DNA of 44,889 nucleotides. Source: Candidatus Sodalis sp. SoCistrobi (lineage in GTDB: Bacteria; Pseudomonadota; Gammaproteobacteria; Enterobacterales; Enterobacteriaceae). Made by a program: the position numbers and the translations under genes. Positions 328 through 44,889 of this stretch are shown here, piece by piece. The stretch lies in contig NZ_FRDB01000005.1 in assembly GCF_900143145.1 (NCBI RefSeq), positions 1 to 44,889 of the forward strand, written 5' to 3'. Every line of letters begins with the position of its first letter. Within the stretch, counting starts at the first letter, position 1. The notes under the pieces were generated by a model that was not told the origin of the DNA, ran no database searches, and saw only the letters and a program-made list of their open reading frames with translations.

Positions 328-600
328 TCAGTCTTCGTCGAAGCCAGCGTTAAACAGTTCGATCACCGCCGCCAGCGCCGCGACCTCGTCCGGCCCGGTG
401 GCCTCGACTTCGATCATCCGCCCTTTGGCGGAATCCAGCATCAGCAAACCGATCACGCTGCTGGCCTCCGCCTCGGTACCGCTGTCGTTACGCAGCATCA
501 CTTCGGCATCGAAACTTTGTACCAGTTCAAACAGCTTCATTGCCGGCCGGGCATGCATACCCAGACGGTTTTTAATCTCTACCGTTTGTTTGACCGTCAT
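328..600 (-). CDS. ptsO: Phosphocarrier protein NPr of the nitrogen phosphotransferase system
   Basis: NPr (gene npr or ptsO) is an HPr-like protein that accepts phosphate from enzyme I-Ntr and passes it to PtsN. At 90 residues it has the normal family length. The phospho-acceptor His16 sits in the expected GMHARPA context. Its ATG overlaps the rapZ stop codon by 4 bp (ATGA, 597-600), so the two are translationally coupled. It is the last gene of the rpoN cluster. In E. coli yrbL follows; here about 200 bp of AT-rich DNA and then an insertion sequence follow. The gene appears intact. Confidence 0.96.
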
Positions 601-1451
601 GATTTGCGTTTTTCCAGAGTGCGGTGGCGGGACTGAACATTCTTGCCGCGAGAGCGAAAATAGTCCGCCAGCTGTTCGGCGATATACACCGAACGGTGTT
701 TACCGCCGGTGCAGCCTATCGCCACCGTGAGATAACTGCGGTTATTGGTTTCCAGCATCGGTAGCCACAGCTCCAGATAGCTGCGGGTCTGATAGATAAA
801 ATTATGGACTTCGGTATGGCGATCCAAAAACGCCGCCACGGGGCGATCCAGGCCGGTCATCGGTCTGAGCTTGGGATCCCAATGCGGATTGGGCAGAAAA
901 CGCACGTCGAACACGTAATCGGCGTCGATGGGAATGCCGTGCTTGTAGCCGAAGGATTCAAACACCATGGTCAGTTCCCGCTCGCGCTTGCCCAACAGGC
1001 GGGTACGTAGCATCTCGGCCAGTTCATGTACCGACATCTCCGACGTGTCGATCACCAGATCGGCGCGCGAGCGCAGCGGCTCAAGCAGCGAGTCCTCTTC
1101 ATCGATGGCGCTTTCCAGCGACAGGTTGCGGGCTGAGAGCGGGTGCAGCCGGCGGGTGTCACTGTAGCGGCGGATGAGGGTATTGCGATCGGCGTCCAGA
1201 AACAGCAACTGCGGGGCAAAGGCCTGCGGCAGGTTATCCATGGCCTGTTCAAAAATCTCCGGCGATTCGGGCATATTGCGCACGTCAATGCTCACCGCAG
1301 CGGAGATATTGCTCGCCGCCAGCGTGCTGGCCAGCTGCGGCAGCAGCACCACCGGCAGGTTATCAACGCAGTAAAAGCCCATGTCCTCCAGCGCGCGCAG
1401 CGCAACGGATTTACCTGAACCTGATCGACCGCTGACTATCATCAGCACCAT
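597..1451 (-). CDS. rapZ: RNase adapter protein RapZ
   Basis: RapZ binds the small RNA GlmZ and delivers it to RNase E, tuning glucosamine-6-phosphate synthase expression. The 284 residues match the family length. A Walker A motif GRSGSGKS lies at residues 8-15. The C-terminal domain has CTGGKHR at about 247-253. The basic tail (K270, K281, R282, K283) matches the RNA-binding tail described in E. coli. It lies between ptsN and npr in the usual order. No lesion is visible. Confidence 0.96.
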
Positions 1452-39528: not shown

Positions 39529-40419
39529 ATGGCCAAAGACCGGGCGTTAACGCTGGAAGCCTTGCGGGTGATGGACGCTATCGACCGCCGAGGCAGCTTC
39601 GCCGCCGCCGCGGACGAGCTGGGACGTGTTCCTTCGGCGTTGAGCTACACAATGCAGAAGTTGGAGGAGGAGCTGGATGTGGTGCTGTTCGACCGTTCCG
39701 GCCACCGCACCAAATTCACCAATGTCGGCCGCATGTTGCTGGAGCGCGGGCTGGTGCTGCTGGAAGCGGCCGACAAGCTTACCACCGATGCAGAAGCGCT
39801 GGCGCGCGGCTGGGAAACCCACCTGACGCTGGTGACCGAAGCCCTGGTCCCCGCCGAGAAATTGTTTCCGCTCATCGAGAAACTGGCGCGTAAAGCCAAC
39901 ACCCAGGTGTCCATTATCAATGAAGTGCTGGCCGGCGCCTGGGAGCGGCTGGAGCAAGGGCGGGCGGATATCGTCATTGCGCCGGATCTTCACTTCCGCG
40001 CGTCGTCCGAAATTAACAGCCGCAAACTGTACCGCTTGCTTAATGTCTACGTCGCCAGCCCCGACCATCCGATCCATCAGGAGCCGGAGCCGCTGTCCGA
40101 GGTGACCCGCGTCAAATATCGCGGCATCGCCATCGCCGATACCGCCCGCGAGCGGCCGGTGCTGACGGTGCAGCTACTGGATAAACAGCAGCGCCTGACG
40201 GTGAGTACCATGGCGGATAAACACAAGGCGCTGCTCGCCGGGCTGGGGGTGGCGACCATGCCTTATCCGCTGGTGGAGGCGGATATCGCCGCCGGGCGTC
40301 TCAGGGTCGTTAGCCCGGAGTACAGCGCCGGGAGCGATATCATCATGGCCTGGCGCCGCGACAGCATGGGGGAAGCCAAATCCTGGTTTCTGCGCGAAAT
40401 TCCTAAACTGTTCAGCTAA
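39529..40419 (+). CDS. yhaJ: LysR-type transcriptional regulator YhaJ
   Basis: A 296-residue LysR-type regulator with an N-terminal winged helix-turn-helix (RRGSFAAAADELGRVPSALS) and a substrate-binding-like domain. In E. coli YhaJ activates yqjF in response to quinone-like products of nitroaromatics; yqjF is present nearby here. It is divergent from yhaK (109 bp) and convergent with yqjG (30 bp). The frame is intact. Confidence 0.92.
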   Translation: MAKDRALTLEALRVMDAIDRRGSFAAAADELGRVPSALSYTMQKLEEELDVVLFDRSGHRTKFTNVGRMLLERGLVLLEAADKLTTDAEALARGWETHLTLVTEALVPAEKLFPLIEKLARKANTQVSIINEVLAGAWERLEQGRADIVIAPDLHFRASSEINSRKLYRLLNVYVASPDHPIHQEPEPLSEVTRVKYRGIAIADTARERPVLTVQLLDKQQRLTVSTMADKHKALLAGLGVATMPYPLVEADIAAGRLRVVSPEYSAGSDIIMAWRRDSMGEAKSWFLREIPKLFS

Positions 40420-40449
40420 AGTCCTGCGGCCGTCCCAGGCGGTAGGGGA

Positions 40450-41447
40450 TCATTCCTCGTCGACGCCGAAACGCTGCCCGCGGCAGTGGGGTTCGTCAAG
40501 ACTTTGCTGCGGTCCGATGGAAATAATGCCGTGGGGATTGAGGGTCGGGTGGCTGCGGAAATAATGATGGCGAATATGGGCAAAGTCCACCGTTTCGGCC
40601 ACGCCCGGCAACTGATAAATATCGCGCAGAAATCCCGAGAGATTTAAATAGTCGCTCAAGCGTTGTTGATCGCATTTAAAGTGGGTGTGATAAACCGCAT
40701 CGAAGCGGATAAGCGTGGTCCACAGCCGTAAATCCGCCTCGGTCAGGCGGGGACCGGTCAGGTAGCGATGCCGGCCGAGAAGCGTCTCCAACCGTGCCAG
40801 TGCGCGAACACGCCCGCTACCGCCTCATCATAGGCCTCCTGACGGGTGGCGAAGCCGGCTTGGTAGACGCCATTATTCACCTGCGGATACACCCAGCCGT
40901 TAATTTCATCAATGGCGGTGCGCAGATGGGCGGGATAATAGTCGCCGGCCAACGCGCCAGCGCCATCGAACGCGCTGTTGAACATGCGCATAATATCCGC
41001 CGATTCGTTGCTGACGATGGTCTGCTGCTGCTTATCCCACAGCACCGGTACCGTGACGCGGCCGCTATAGCCGGCGTCCGCCTGCAAATATAGTTGATAC
41101 AGAAAGGCCTTATCAAACAGGGGATCGCCGGTGGTGCCGGGGAAGTCGCGGCTGAAGGTCCAGCCGTTCTCAAGCATGAGCGGATGCACTACCGAGACCG
41201 GGATCAAACGGTCCAGGCCTTTCAGCTGGCGCATCAGCAGGGTTCGGTGCGCCCAGGGGCAGGCCAGCGAAACATAAAGATGGTAGCGACCGGCCTCAGC
41301 GCGAAAGCCGCCGCGTCCTTCCGGCCCGGCGCTGCCGTCAGCGGTGATCCAATTGCGGAACTGGGACGCCGAGCGTTGAAAACGTCCGCCGCTGGCGGCG
41401 GTATCGTACCACTTGTCCTGCCACTGCCCCTCTACCAGTAATCCCAT
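40450..41447 (-). pseudogene. yqjG: yqjG, glutathionyl-hydroquinone reductase, frameshifted
   Basis: YqjG reduces glutathionyl-hydroquinones. The start MGLLVEGQWQ (41447) has AAGGAG upstream. The catalytic cysteine is Cys63 in LACPWAHRT. The frame is lost after DEAVAGVFA near 40800-40804; adding one base (GCGCACTGG to GCGGCACTGG) restores ALARLETLLGRHRYLTG and the C-terminal GST domain to the stop at 40450, about 332 residues in total (328 in E. coli). As read, the product would keep the thioredoxin-like domain and lose the last third of the GST helical domain. Confidence 0.9.
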
Positions 41448-41471
41448 CTTTTCACTCCTTCCAACGTCATG

Positions 41472-41618
41472 CCGCTCGGCGGCATATACCGACGGCTTAT
41501 GCAGTGCCGGCCCGTCGCGTCGATGAATTGCCAAAACCGGCGCAGCGCCGGCTTTGTGCCCCGTTGCGCCGATGAATTGCCTCGACCGGCGCAGTGCCGC
41601 CTTACCGAACGAGCTCGC
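41472..41618 (-). repeat. 49-bp tandem repeat downstream of yqjF
   Basis: CGATGAATTGCC recurs at 41521 and 41570, a 49-bp period, with a more diverged copy before it from about 41472. Each unit carries ACCGGCGCAG-GCCG; the middle copy contains a perfect dyad CCGGCGCAGCGCCGG (41537-41551). The array abuts the yqjF stop codon (41619-41621), so it lies at the 3' end of yqjF and upstream of yqjG. Confidence 0.8.
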
Positions 41619-42056
41619 TTATCGCAGCACGGAACCGGCGGAAGGCGCCGTTGCCCGGGGTGATCTTTTTTTCTTCAGCAGATAATCCAGGCTGAAGGCG
41701 CCGGGGCCGCTTACCGCCAACAGCAAATAGCCACCGGCGATGGTCAGGTTTTTCATAAAGTTGATCTGGTTGCCCGCCTGAGCAAAGTCCGCATGGAAAA
41801 TAAACGCCGTCAGCAGCGTAAATACCACGGTGACCAGCGCTACGCTGCGGGTAAGCAACCCGAATAGCACCGCCAAACCCCCGCCGACTTCCAGCAGAAT
41901 GGTCAACGGCAGTAAAAAGCCCGGCACGCCCATCGCCGCCATGTATTGCTGGGGGGCGGCGTAACCGGCGCCCAATTTGCCATAACCGGCCACAATAAAC
42001 AGTATAGGCATCAATACACGCGCCAGCAGCAGGGCAGTATCATCTAATTTTTTCAT
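41619..42056 (-). CDS. yqjF: DoxX-family membrane protein YqjF
   Basis: A 145-residue DoxX-type membrane protein with four hydrophobic segments; conserved ARVLMPILFIVAGYGKL, EVGGGLAVLFGLLTR and FMKNLTIAGGYLLL. E. coli YqjF is about 130 residues; here a 15-residue polar tail (ending SAGSVLR) has been added at the C-terminus, directly before a tandem array. Function is unclear, but expression in E. coli responds to quinone-like compounds through YhaJ. TTAGACC at 42071-42077, just upstream, matches half of the operator of the neighbouring TetR gene. Confidence 0.88.
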   Translation of the reverse strand: MKKLDDTALLLARVLMPILFIVAGYGKLGAGYAAPQQYMAAMGVPGFLLPLTILLEVGGGLAVLFGLLTRSVALVTVVFTLLTAFIFHADFAQAGNQINFMKNLTIAGGYLLLAVSGPGAFSLDYLLKKKRSPRATAPSAGSVLR

Positions 42057-42307: not shown

Positions 42308-42324
42308 TAGACGACCGGTCCAAT
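42308..42324 (+). promoter_or_regulatory. Candidate operator 1 (upstream of the NemR-like repressor)
   Basis: AGACGACCGGTCCAAT lies 18 bp before the repressor ATG and contains the perfect 8-bp palindrome GACCGGTC. Fifteen of 16 bases recur upstream of the DJ-1-like gene. The position fits autorepression. The spacer 42057-42342 holds no gene. Confidence 0.7.
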
Positions 42325-42342
42325 TAATGCTACTGTCATAGG

Positions 42343-42948
42343 ATGAATAGCGCGATAACCATCGAAACCAACCCTGTGCGGGACTACATTCTGGCTACCG
42401 GCATGCGTATTATGGCCGGCAAGGGCTTTTCCGCCGTAGGGCTTAACGAAATTCTGACCGCCGCAGGTGTGCCGAAGGGGTCGTTTTATCACTATTTCGG
42501 TTCCAAAGAGGCCTTCGGCGAAGCGCTGCTTGAGCGTTACTTTGCGGATTATCTGGCGGAGCTGGACGCCACGCTTTGCGTTCCCGGCCTGACCATGGCG
42601 CAGCGCCTGATGAATTATTGGCAGAATTGGCAGGACACCCAGTCTTTTCACGACTGCCAGGGCAAATGTCTGGCGGTCAAGCTGGGCGCCGAGGTTGCCG
42701 ATCTGTCTGAGGCCATGCGTCATGCGCTCCAGCGTGGGACCTCAGGTATCACCGATCGTCTGGCGCGGGCCATTGAGGGCGGTGTGGCGGAAGGGTCGTT
42801 GTCCGTCAACGGTTTGCCCGTTGAGGTTGCACAAAGCCTTTACCAGCTGTGGCTGGGCGCCAGCGTGATGGTTAAGATCGTCCGCCACACCCAGCCCTTT
42901 GCCACGGCGATGATAACCACGCGTCACATCTTGCATCTTTGCCCATGA
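42343..42948 (+). CDS. NemR-like TetR-family repressor
   Basis: A 201-residue TetR-family protein with an N-terminal helix-turn-helix (LNEILTAAGVPKGSFYHYF). The segment GKCLAVKLGAEVADLSEAMR aligns with E. coli NemR, placing Cys109 at NemR Cys106, the electrophile/oxidant-sensing residue; Cys105 is nearby. NemR represses nemA-gloA. The linked target here appears to be the next gene. No good ribosome-binding site is visible before the ATG. The gene is absent from this position in E. coli K-12 (between yqjK and yqjF). Confidence 0.85.
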   Translation: MNSAITIETNPVRDYILATGMRIMAGKGFSAVGLNEILTAAGVPKGSFYHYFGSKEAFGEALLERYFADYLAELDATLCVPGLTMAQRLMNYWQNWQDTQSFHDCQGKCLAVKLGAEVADLSEAMRHALQRGTSGITDRLARAIEGGVAEGSLSVNGLPVEVAQSLYQLWLGASVMVKIVRHTQPFATAMITTRHILHLCP

Positions 42949-42967
42949 CCGGGGGGAAAGATAACAG

Positions 42968-42990
42968 CACTTCTGTGGAAGTGTTTTTTT
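42968..42990 (+). terminator. Intrinsic terminator of the TetR gene
   Basis: CACTTC (42968-42973) and GAAGTG (42978-42983) with a 4-nt loop are followed by seven Ts. It separates the repressor transcript from the DJ-1-like gene, which has its own operator and promoter. Confidence 0.85.
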
Positions 42991-43002
42991 AGCTGTAGTT
43001 TC

Positions 43003-43021
43003 AAGACGACCGGTCTAATAT
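43003..43021 (+). promoter_or_regulatory. Candidate operator 2 and -10 of the DJ-1-like gene
   Basis: AGACGACCGGTCTAAT at 43004-43019 repeats operator 1 with one change and overlaps a likely -10 (TAATAT, 43016-43021). AGGAGA at 43037-43042 is the ribosome-binding site for the ATG at 43049. Binding here would block transcription. Confidence 0.72.
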
Positions 43022-43048
43022 AAACTTTCTATCTTTAGGAGAAGCACA

Positions 43049-43741
43049 ATGAAAATAGTAATGGTCCTGACTTCGCATGACAGACTGGGCGATACCGGCC
43101 GCAAAACCGGCTTCTGGTTGGAAGAATTAGCCGCACCCTATTATGCCTTTCAAGATGCCGGCGCCGAGATCGTGCTGGCCTCGCCCAAAGGTGGCCAGCC
43201 GCCGCTTGATCCCAAAAGTAATGAACCGGCTTTCCAAACCGATCTTACCCGCCGTTTCGAGGCCGACGCCCGGGCAATGGCGCAACTGGCTGCCACCGTG
43301 CGTCTGGACAGCGTCGCAGAGGCCGACTTCGACACGGTGTTTTACCCGGGCGGTCACGGCCCATTGTGGGACCTGCCTGTAGACACGCACTCGCGCGCGC
43401 TTATCACGTCGTTCCTTGCCGCCGGTAAGCCGGTTGCGTTGGTGTGCCATGCGCCGGGCGTGCTGCGTCACGTTCAGACCCCGGCAGGGCGGCCGCTGGT
43501 CGAAGGCAAAAACGTCACGGGTTTTAGCAACACCGAAGAAGAGGGGGTAGGGCTGACTCACGTCGTGCCGTTCCTGGTGGAGGATGAGCTGAAGGCCCTG
43601 GGCGGTCTTTATAGCAAGGGGGAAGACTGGGCGCCTTATGTTGTGAGTGATGGCCTGCTGATAACCGGCCAGAACCCGGCGTCATCCGCTTCGACGGCGG
43701 CCTTGTTGCTTGAGCAACTTAAGGCGGGCAAACCCGCCTGA
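43049..43741 (+). CDS. DJ-1/PfpI-family protein, glyoxalase III-like
   Basis: A 230-residue class-I glutamine-amidotransferase-fold protein of the Hsp31/glyoxalase III-like branch. Putative catalytic residues are Cys133-His134 in ALVCHAPGVLR with Glu25 or Glu26 in TGFWLEELAAPYY; FYPGGHGPLWDLP forms the oxyanion and turn region. Such enzymes convert methylglyoxal to lactate without glutathione or act on glycated products; which applies here is not shown by sequence. It follows a NemR-like repressor and shares its operator. The gene is intact. Confidence 0.88.
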   Translation: MKIVMVLTSHDRLGDTGRKTGFWLEELAAPYYAFQDAGAEIVLASPKGGQPPLDPKSNEPAFQTDLTRRFEADARAMAQLAATVRLDSVAEADFDTVFYPGGHGPLWDLPVDTHSRALITSFLAAGKPVALVCHAPGVLRHVQTPAGRPLVEGKNVTGFSNTEEEGVGLTHVVPFLVEDELKALGGLYSKGEDWAPYVVSDGLLITGQNPASSASTAALLLEQLKAGKPA

Positions 43742-43980: not shown

Positions 43981-44268
43981 TCAGCGGCTTTCGAGCGCTT
44001 TGCGCACCATTTTGACCGCGCCCAGAATGCCGATGCCGCGTTTGGCCCAGCGCATCAGACGGCTGGGGTGGCGCACGTTATACAATGCCAGCAGGCTGGT
44101 ACCGGCAATCAGGTAACGGCGAAGGCTTAATACACGTATCCAGCGCCGATCCCAAGGAGCGACAGCAAGCTGCCACTGGCGACCTTGCACGCCCAGCGCC
44201 TGTCGCTGCTGCTGGATTTGACGTAACAGCAGTAACTTCTTGGCGCGTTTCGGATTGCGTTCGCTCAT
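43981..44268 (-). CDS. yqjK: YqjK-family protein
   Basis: A 95-residue protein matching E. coli YqjK: a basic N-terminal helix (KLLLLRQIQQQRQAL), WDRRW, a central hydrophobic segment, then NVRHPSRLMRWAKRGIG. The function is unknown. Its ATG overlaps the yqjE stop by 4 bp (44265-44268), so it was translationally coupled to yqjE, which is now frameshifted. Confidence 0.85.
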   Translation of the reverse strand: MSERNPKRAKKLLLLRQIQQQRQALGVQGRQWQLAVAPWDRRWIRVLSLRRYLIAGTSLLALYNVRHPSRLMRWAKRGIGILGAVKMVRKALESR

Positions 44269-44740
44269 TTCGCCTCCGCAATCCTGTCGCGCTGCTTATT
44301 TTTTACCTTTTCATCGTGCTTGCGTTCGGCTTCTTCGTTCTTAATTTCATCCTGCAGTTTTTCAAGGATGTTGCGATCCACCTGCAGCTCCTCACGCGTG
44401 GAGCCGAGCAACGAAGATTTACGCGCTTTGGCCAAGGTCACCACCGCGCCGACGATCGCCAGCAATAGCAGATGCCGGTGGTGGTGGCGATCGCCGTCAG
44501 GCGGTACTGCGGATCGATGGCCAGGATCACCAATACCAACAGGCTCATCAGACCGAACGCGGCAAACAGCAGCGTGATACCGGCCATCATCAGCATCTGA
44601 ATGATATTGGATTTCTCTTCCTCCAGCTCCACGACGGCCAGGCGCAGGCGGGTCTCTACCATACCGACGACAATAGTAAGGATTCGCTGGGCGATATTGA
44701 ATAAGCCATTACCGGGGCCCTGGTTTTGCTGTTCGATCAT
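44265..44740 (-). pseudogene. yqjE: yqjE, phage-holin-superfamily III membrane protein, frameshifted
   Basis: YqjE is a small inner-membrane protein associated with the ribosome-binding YqjD family. The first frame gives GPGNGLFNIAQRI, VETRLRLAVVELEEEK and one membrane helix to QYRLTAIATTTG. It is then lost near 44475-44485; adding one base recovers LLLLAIVGAVVTLAKARKS, the second helix, and an extended charged tail. The restored length is about 158 residues against about 134 in E. coli. The IS right end lies 23 bp upstream of the start, where yqjD would be expected. Confidence 0.85.
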
Positions 44741-44763: not shown

Positions 44764-44889
44764 TGAATAACCCCGAGTTTATTAGAGAGTAATTTTGGCA
44801 ATACTACGCCGCTTCCTCTGATGCTAATTGCAAAGCGTAATAGTTCATTTCGGCTTCAGTAGGAGGGATGTAACCCAGCCGCCCGAGCA
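44764..44889 (-). mobile_element. Right terminal part of an IS3-type insertion sequence (right copy)
   Basis: Exact reverse complement of positions 2-127. The element boundary is at 44764 (TG), directly upstream of yqjE. The copy extends out of the window to the right. Together with the left copy it forms an inverted pair whose transposase 3' ends point inward. Confidence 0.8.
44804..44889 (-). CDS. IS3-family transposase (OrfB), C-terminal fragment
   Basis: Stop codon at 44804-44806; the same C-terminal peptide as the left copy (ending QLASEEAA), running off the right edge. Only about 28 codons are visible, so intactness is unknown. Confidence 0.7.
   Translation of the reverse strand, partial: LGRLGYIPPTEAEMNYYALQLASEEAA

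Follow-up and report, generated by a model that had tools for sequence, protein, structure and literature searches.

The closest described relative of the locus analyzed here is the CurR-curA system of P. aeruginosa (PA2196-PA2197), in which a TetR repressor lies beside its target, the curcumin reductase CurA, and whose repressor PA2196 has been crystallized on its operator (4l62). CurR reportedly senses hypochlorite and N-ethylmaleimide, going by the title of a paper. In the NemR/nemA-gloA system of E. coli, Cys106 of NemR is described as critical for the response to reactive chlorine in a passage of a review that also presents a Cys106-Lys175 sulfenamide (PMC5297802). AltR of Pantoea ananatis, a NemR-homologous repressor with a key cysteine, answers thiosulfinates and not N-ethylmaleimide or diamide. 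A more distant relative is AcuR of the AcuR-acuI system, for which an excerpt of the Rhodobacter study gives the half-sites TAATAGAC-n6-GTCTATTA, with mutational support, and acrylate as inducer (PMC3017554).

The window, that is, the whole 44,889-nucleotide stretch of DNA that was analyzed, holds a module in which a TetR-family gene precedes a DJ-1/PfpI gene, each with a putative operator of the form TAGAC-N5-GTCTA upstream (Table 1). Like CurR, the window repressor lies beside its putative target, but this is a DJ-1 enzyme instead of CurA. With NemR it shares the equivalents of Cys106 and Lys175, the recognition helix and the half-sites TAGAC/GTCTA, whereas the E. coli nemR box has a 6-nt spacer and NemR has other targets and falls in a separate clade. 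The likeness to AcuR lies in family and half-site, with ~31% identity, acrylate as inducer and a published n6 spacer setting AcuR apart, and AltR differs in its box, CAATCTAC-N6-GTAGATTG. The module belongs to a known kind of system; the part that could surprise is the reach of its near-invariant, directional box across two phyla and, within proteobacteria, several unrelated detoxification enzymes.

Layout and distribution of the module

Table 1. Features of the module and its flanks, in window coordinates
Feature	Coordinates	Strand	Details
yqjF (DoxX family), left flank	41619..42056	-	
Operator 1 (putative), AGACGACCGGTCCAAT	42309..42324	+	context TAGACGACCGGTCCA, 5-nt spacer; TCCAAT as putative -10
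TetR-family repressor, CurR/NemR kind	42343..42948	+	201 aa, intact ORF; C109, K178, recognition helix 44-52 PKGSFYHYF
Hairpin and T run, modest intrinsic-terminator-like element between both genes	42966..42990	+	T7 run
Operator 2 (putative), AGACGACCGGTCTAAT	43004..43019	+	context AAGACGACCGGTCTA; right half TCTAAT as putative -10
DJ-1/PfpI superfamily, Hsp31/Glx3-like enzyme	43049..43741	+	230 aa, intact ORF; E25, C133, H134
yqjK, right flank	43981..44268	-	

Operator 1 starts 34 nt before the ATG of the TetR gene and operator 2 starts 45 nt before that of the DJ-1 gene. A repeat search recovered the two sites de novo as a direct repeat, 695 bp apart and alike at 15 of 16 bases, one before each gene, in line with an earlier sequence-only reading of this DNA that had proposed two near-identical sites serving as matched operators for a single repressor. 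The same reading had placed a strong terminator between the genes. That strength is not borne out: a hairpin with a T run exists there, but its folding energy of -9.5 kcal/mol (z -0.24 against shuffled sequences) makes it modest. A similar intergenic hairpin, judged by eye, is found in genomes of two other genera, G026 and G004.

In E. coli K-12, zero annotated genes lie between yqjK and yqjF, so the module is indeed absent there, as had been claimed. It is nevertheless no local novelty, since the gene pair with both sites spans proteobacteria and actinomycetes, occurs on a plasmid and stands beside yqjF in the two other genera. In G004 it lies directly between yqjK and yqjF, while in G026, where the second box has one mismatch, ~2.3 kb reading like transposase genes come before yqjK; no convincing similarity was found between this stretch and the 239-nt gap separating the DJ-1 gene from yqjK in the window, a comparison that lends no support to insertion by a mobile element. 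All three genomes have the GGTCCAAT variant of operator 1 in common. Among plasmids, 447 records hold a DJ-1 relative at an E value of 1e-60 or better, and one Chimaeribacter plasmid, typed as non-mobilizable, carries a complete copy, with repressor, enzyme and both boxes arranged as in the window.

In a careful tree, the window repressor clusters with those of G026 and G004 in a single clade (100/97), which is not starred in a quick tree. From this shared clade and the position beside yqjF in G026 and G004, we conclude that acquisition probably predates these three genera. Transfer into the window genome alone was rejected on the same grounds. The Pantoea, Erwinia and Rahnella copies form another clade. 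Supports around the Mesorhizobium, Rhodoferax and Pantoea/Erwinia rows are 81/74, and because the deeper order is weakly supported we name no donor.

Identity of the repressor and the enzyme

Among the 16 NCBIfam models listed for the repressor, CurR (NF058643) scores best with 240 bits against a cut-off of 300, followed by AcuR (NF051457) with 120.6 bits against 247; the Pfam TetR domains PF00440 (50.8 bits, gathering threshold 24) and PF16925 (50.5, threshold 27) are clearly present. The predicted structure (pLDDT 84.8; 24 rows, as for the enzyme) has operator-bound PA2196 (4l62) as its best PDB fold match, with a Z of 24.4 to PA2196. Sequence and predicted structure agree on the closest solved structures: PA2196 comes first, both free and on operator DNA, and reduced E. 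coli NemR follows, with identities in the structure matches of 54-55% to PA2196/CurR and 42-44% to NemR. Similarity thus points to CurR as the nearest relative. curA, the adjacent target in that system, is not the neighbor here: the neighbor is of DJ-1 type, and the assembly holds no further exact box.

The residues of the NemR switch are retained. In an alignment of 114 repressors (the window, E. coli NemR and 112 others, with identity to the window down to ~42%), C109, which aligns with NemR Cys106, and K178, the equivalent of Lys175, are invariant in all 114 rows. This confirms that the repressor keeps the sensor cysteine of NemR, as the sequence-only reading had noted. The recognition helix is equally invariant except at H50, which is kept in 112 of the rows.

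The description of the repressor as NemR-like stood only in part. The Cys106 and Lys175 equivalents favor it, but score and identity are closer to PA2196/CurR, and the box is 1 bp shorter than that of E. coli nemR. In the careful tree, whose bootstrap has not settled, three nemA-linked repressors of enterobacteria join E. coli NemR in a clade (100/100) that leaves the window outside. In the quick tree, to which PA2196 was added and where the NemR and PA2196 labels come from annotation and a title, these two fall in one starred set of 30 rows with the window outside it, across a starred branch from both. L130, a long branch, was omitted from the second tree built. The window repressor is an orthologue of neither CurR nor NemR, and the DJ-1-linked group forms a third branch.

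As for the enzyme, its membership of the DJ-1/PfpI family (PF01965) is clear, with 49.9 bits against a gathering threshold of 26.6, while the HchA model (NF003168) gives 42.6 bits against a cut-off of 365. The predicted fold (pLDDT 90.3, pTM 0.89) is nearest to Francisella REP24, 1u9c, yeast Hsp31 and Candida glyoxalase III, with TM scores of 0.86-0.91 by query length; E. coli Hsp31 is further off, at 0.76-0.80. Aligned with yeast Hsp31, E25, C133 and H134, which we take to carry out catalysis in the Hsp31/Glx3 type, are present in all 63 aligned proteins; these come from the fetched loci and include some that are not under a box. The window enzyme therefore shares the fold (TM 0.87-0.91) and the aligned Glu, Cys and His of yeast Hsp31, Candida Glx3 and Francisella REP24, whereas its identity to them is 28-37% and its activity a predicted one. 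To this extent, the earlier assignment as a glyoxalase III-like enzyme holds. A second DJ-1 paralogue in the same genome (L228, G000:C122:5836-6510) is 64% identical and has no exact 12-mer box.

The box, its direction and its targets

Counts in the window's own genome say little about regulation. In the 3.08-Mb assembly, 82% complete, the 12-mer shared by both operators has two exact copies against three for a reversed control, and ten matches with one mismatch against 55. The search for the site elsewhere in the genome, which the sequence-only reading had suggested, left the exact 12-mer confined to the module and brought out no enrichment, so we rejected this count as proof of regulation. 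No third exact 12-mer that would indicate a larger regulon was found in the assembly, and the eight one-mismatch places, scanned for homologues of the window TetR, DJ-1, yqjF and yqjK genes, gave none. The evidence for the box is instead its position before a co-directional gene pair together with phylogenetic footprinting.

For the latter, 80 loci were chosen by repressor-protein similarity alone (identity to the window from 80% down to ~52%), and ~200 nt upstream of each repressor gene were scanned. The 13-mer AGACGACYGGTCT was present with at most one mismatch in 72 of the 80 (none in 60 loci, one in 12); three loci had two mismatches, four had four to five, and one was without upstream sequence. 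By class, sites with at most one mismatch were found in 15/15 alphaproteobacterial, 23/23 betaproteobacterial, 21/27 gammaproteobacterial and 13/14 actinomycete loci, and in 0/1 unclassed. The reversed pattern occurred upstream of none of the 80 repressors at two mismatches or fewer, its best match having three.

The 15-mer TAGACGACYGGTCTA gave a similar picture at the scale of genomes: 71 sites in 46 of 197 genomes of the order (control 1) and 70 sites in 45 of 398 genomes of the phylum (control 5), these samples having genomes in common and the sums being taken from printed rows. In 36 genomes picked for holding a relative, there were 62 sites in 34 (control 1). The window genome itself has no copy of this 15-mer because each of its two sites differs from it at one base near an end. 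Text searches of the open-access literature by sequence and by topic returned no description of the box, with no match for the 15- and 16-mers and matches of 11- and 12-mers to, for example, a primer and a construct sequence; since the operator DNA in 4l62 and the key NemR/YdhM and CurR papers lie outside the scope of these searches, we do not imply that the box is unpublished.

The box is directional and reads towards the gene at 157 of 161 exact sites. These sites lie in 112 loci; for 154 of them, a listed target begins within 300 nt on the reading strand alone, for three on both strands, for one on the opposite strand only and for three on neither. Nothing requires the operator of a homodimer to be directional, and the fixed direction of this box raises the question why. 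Base frequencies were taken over 213 non-redundant sites, which include loci found by the 15-mer and 16-mer patterns, so that the columns within the box are partly selected whereas positions +15 and -3 lie outside the patterns. At +15, where TCTANT ends, 97% of the sites have T, against 56% for the mirror A. A weak TTGACA-like signal peaks over the same sites at spacers of 17-19, and at spacers of 16-18 at least four matches to TTGACA occur in 32% of them, against 12% with shuffled flanks and 16% on the mirror strand. The right half of the box thus looks like a -10 hexamer, in which case bound repressor would cover the promoter. For the DJ-1 gene, whose -10 had been said to overlap the second site, TCTAAT is a plausible hexamer, but no good -35 was found at either window site, nor did scanning of the region under strict criteria return a promoter.

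While the window has a spacer of 5 nt at both sites, E. coli nemR carries TAGACCGACTGGTCTA (TAGAC-N6-GTCTA), one base pair longer, and nemA of E. coli K-12 is preceded by AGACGACCGG only. Among the 80 relatives, the 6-nt form was found nowhere with fewer than three mismatches. Six enterobacterial nemR loci (L132, L133, L143, L144, L178 and L180) have a 6-nt box before nemR and a 5-nt box, with no or one mismatch, before nemA. The group seems to tolerate both spacers, and such loci suggest that a single repressor recognizes either spacing, which raises the question of how NemR-like proteins combine the two. G041 has 5-nt boxes at both a TetR relative and an AcuI gene. The window's own genome holds, at another locus (L229, G000:C334), a TetR gene 31% identical to the window repressor with an acuI-like frame of 172 aa; because TAGACGATCAGTCTA lies just upstream of this acuR-like gene, cross-talk between it and the window repressor is conceivable.

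The enzymes under the box vary. A target was linked if it lay under a box with at most two mismatches or directly downstream of the repressor, and over 115 loci this gave DJ-1 in 51, CurA in 24, iron-dependent alcohol dehydrogenase (Fe-ADH) in 15, NemA in 10, quinone-reductase-like proteins in four, and an MFS protein, an amidase and AcuI in one each, the seeds for these last three being drawn from the loci themselves. Three loci have two linked targets and 11 none. When linked by the box alone, the counts are 45, 24, 12, 9 and 3 in the same order, plus the three singles. Nearly all linked targets are oxidoreductases or DJ-1 enzymes of carbonyl, enone or quinone type. Family scans of one example each gave CurA 558.8 bits (cut-off 440), AcuI 576.3 (440), the Ohr family 155.8 (88.85) and the old yellow enzyme (OYE) 257.8 Pfam bits (27), all above their cut-offs, whereas the best Fe-ADH match, the alcohol dehydrogenase PRK15138, which we take to be YqhD, scored 581.7 against 645.

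On the quick tree, the target label (104 of 114 rows labeled, rows with two targets counted as DJ-1) needs at least 19 changes, where the least possible is 4 and shuffled labels need 46.9; well-supported branches force 3 changes for DJ-1, 4 for CurA, 6 for Fe-ADH, 2 for NemA and 2 for the quinone-reductase-like proteins. Exchange of the enzyme is seen in proteobacteria only, because the 14 actinomycete loci link only DJ-1 (11) and one amidase, with two unlinked. In one further locus (L237), a gene for an Ohr-family peroxiredoxin (407-832, minus strand) has a perfect box, and a TetR gene of this type beside it has another box. In eleven genomes of one genus (L149-L159), a CurA-like gene follows a perfect box, with no such repressor within ~1.5 kb or less on each side; its regulator may be encoded elsewhere.

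Proposed mechanism and alternatives

Starting from what is observed here, namely the genes, the key residues and the conserved, directional sites, we infer binding, the -10 role, the inducer and catalysis, and consider it likely that the module is a self-contained electrophile or chlorine sensor of CurR/NemR type derepressing a glyoxalase III-like enzyme. A TetR homodimer would bind TAGAC-N5-GTCTA at its own promoter and at that of the DJ-1 gene, and since the right half of the box would be the -10 hexamer, bound repressor would block RNA polymerase at both. An electrophile such as methylglyoxal, a quinone or N-ethylmaleimide, or else hypochlorite, would modify or oxidize Cys109, with Lys178 nearby, and release the repressor, for which the proposed Cys106-Lys175 switch of NemR serves as a model. 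The DJ-1 gene would then be transcribed from its own promoter, and its product may remove a reactive carbonyl in a glyoxalase III-like reaction by Glu25, Cys133 and His134.

We further incline, with rather less assurance, to the view that TAGAC-GACYG-GTCTA and a Cys/Lys-switched TetR make up a portable "electrophile response element" whose targets have been swapped in proteobacteria among DJ-1/Hsp31, CurA, iron-ADH, OYE/NemA and quinone-reductase-like enzymes and, singly, AcuI and Ohr, while one nearly invariant, directional box that also serves as the -10 element was kept across two phyla. If this holds, new targets would be recruited by gain of a box, and repressors of different hosts would be interchangeable. 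One short box would then predict which genes for the detoxification of carbonyls, enones, quinones and peroxides respond to a cysteine-switched repressor, offer a broad-host sensor part and make a phylum-crossing regulon testable. The box also suggests a function for DJ-1 genes that are widespread yet carry no annotation beyond "type 1 glutamine amidotransferase domain."

The same locus could be read as an ordinary ligand-binding TetR system, in which a metabolite, quinone or aldehyde binds non-covalently, the cysteine is structural and the DJ-1 protein has a part in catabolism or protein repair instead of electrophile defense. In favor of it, acrylate is the inducer of the distantly related AcuR, whose half-site is similar, the activities of DJ-1 superfamily members are several and disputed, and AltR illustrates that inducers differ within the group; by analogy with AltR, a conserved cysteine alone would not fix the inducer. 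This reading is nonetheless unlikely in view of the invariance of C109 and K178 in all 114 rows down to ~42% identity, and of the linked targets of the 115 loci, nearly all of which act by kind on carbonyls, enones or quinones. That the module is simply a direct NemR orthologue relocated in the genome is very improbable: the 42-44% identity to E. coli NemR, the same fold and the shared cysteine and lysine would fit, but the present trees oppose it by grouping NemR with its nemA-linked trio apart from the window, the neighbor is not nemA, the spacer is 5 and not 6 nt, and CurR outscores all the other NCBIfam models listed.

A last possibility, that the module is a decaying remnant whose genes are open but out of use in a shrinking genome, draws on the state of its surroundings. 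The flanking yqjG (40465-41447) and yqjE (44358-44731), both on the minus strand, each match the E. coli protein in two frames; they look frameshifted, or else reflect assembly errors, while the two genes of the module they enclose are open. Added to this are a small, fragmented assembly and one deviation from the 15-mer in each box. We regard decay as quite improbable all the same. Both genes are open, with dN/dS against G026 and G004 of 0.12-0.13 for the repressor and 0.07-0.08 for the enzyme, the frameshifts of the neighbors could be assembly errors, and the variant of box 1 is not recent decay because it is shared with G026 and G004. The sensor reading set out above is the one we prefer.

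Two minor observations concern the wider surroundings. From reading only, the window end (44800-44889) looks like the last part of a minus-strand insertion-sequence gene. The module also lies near yqjG and a yhaJ-like LysR gene (39529-41534); yqjG encodes glutathionyl-hydroquinone reductase in E. coli, where we take the yqjG/yhaJ neighborhood to be quinone- and dinitrotoluene-responsive.
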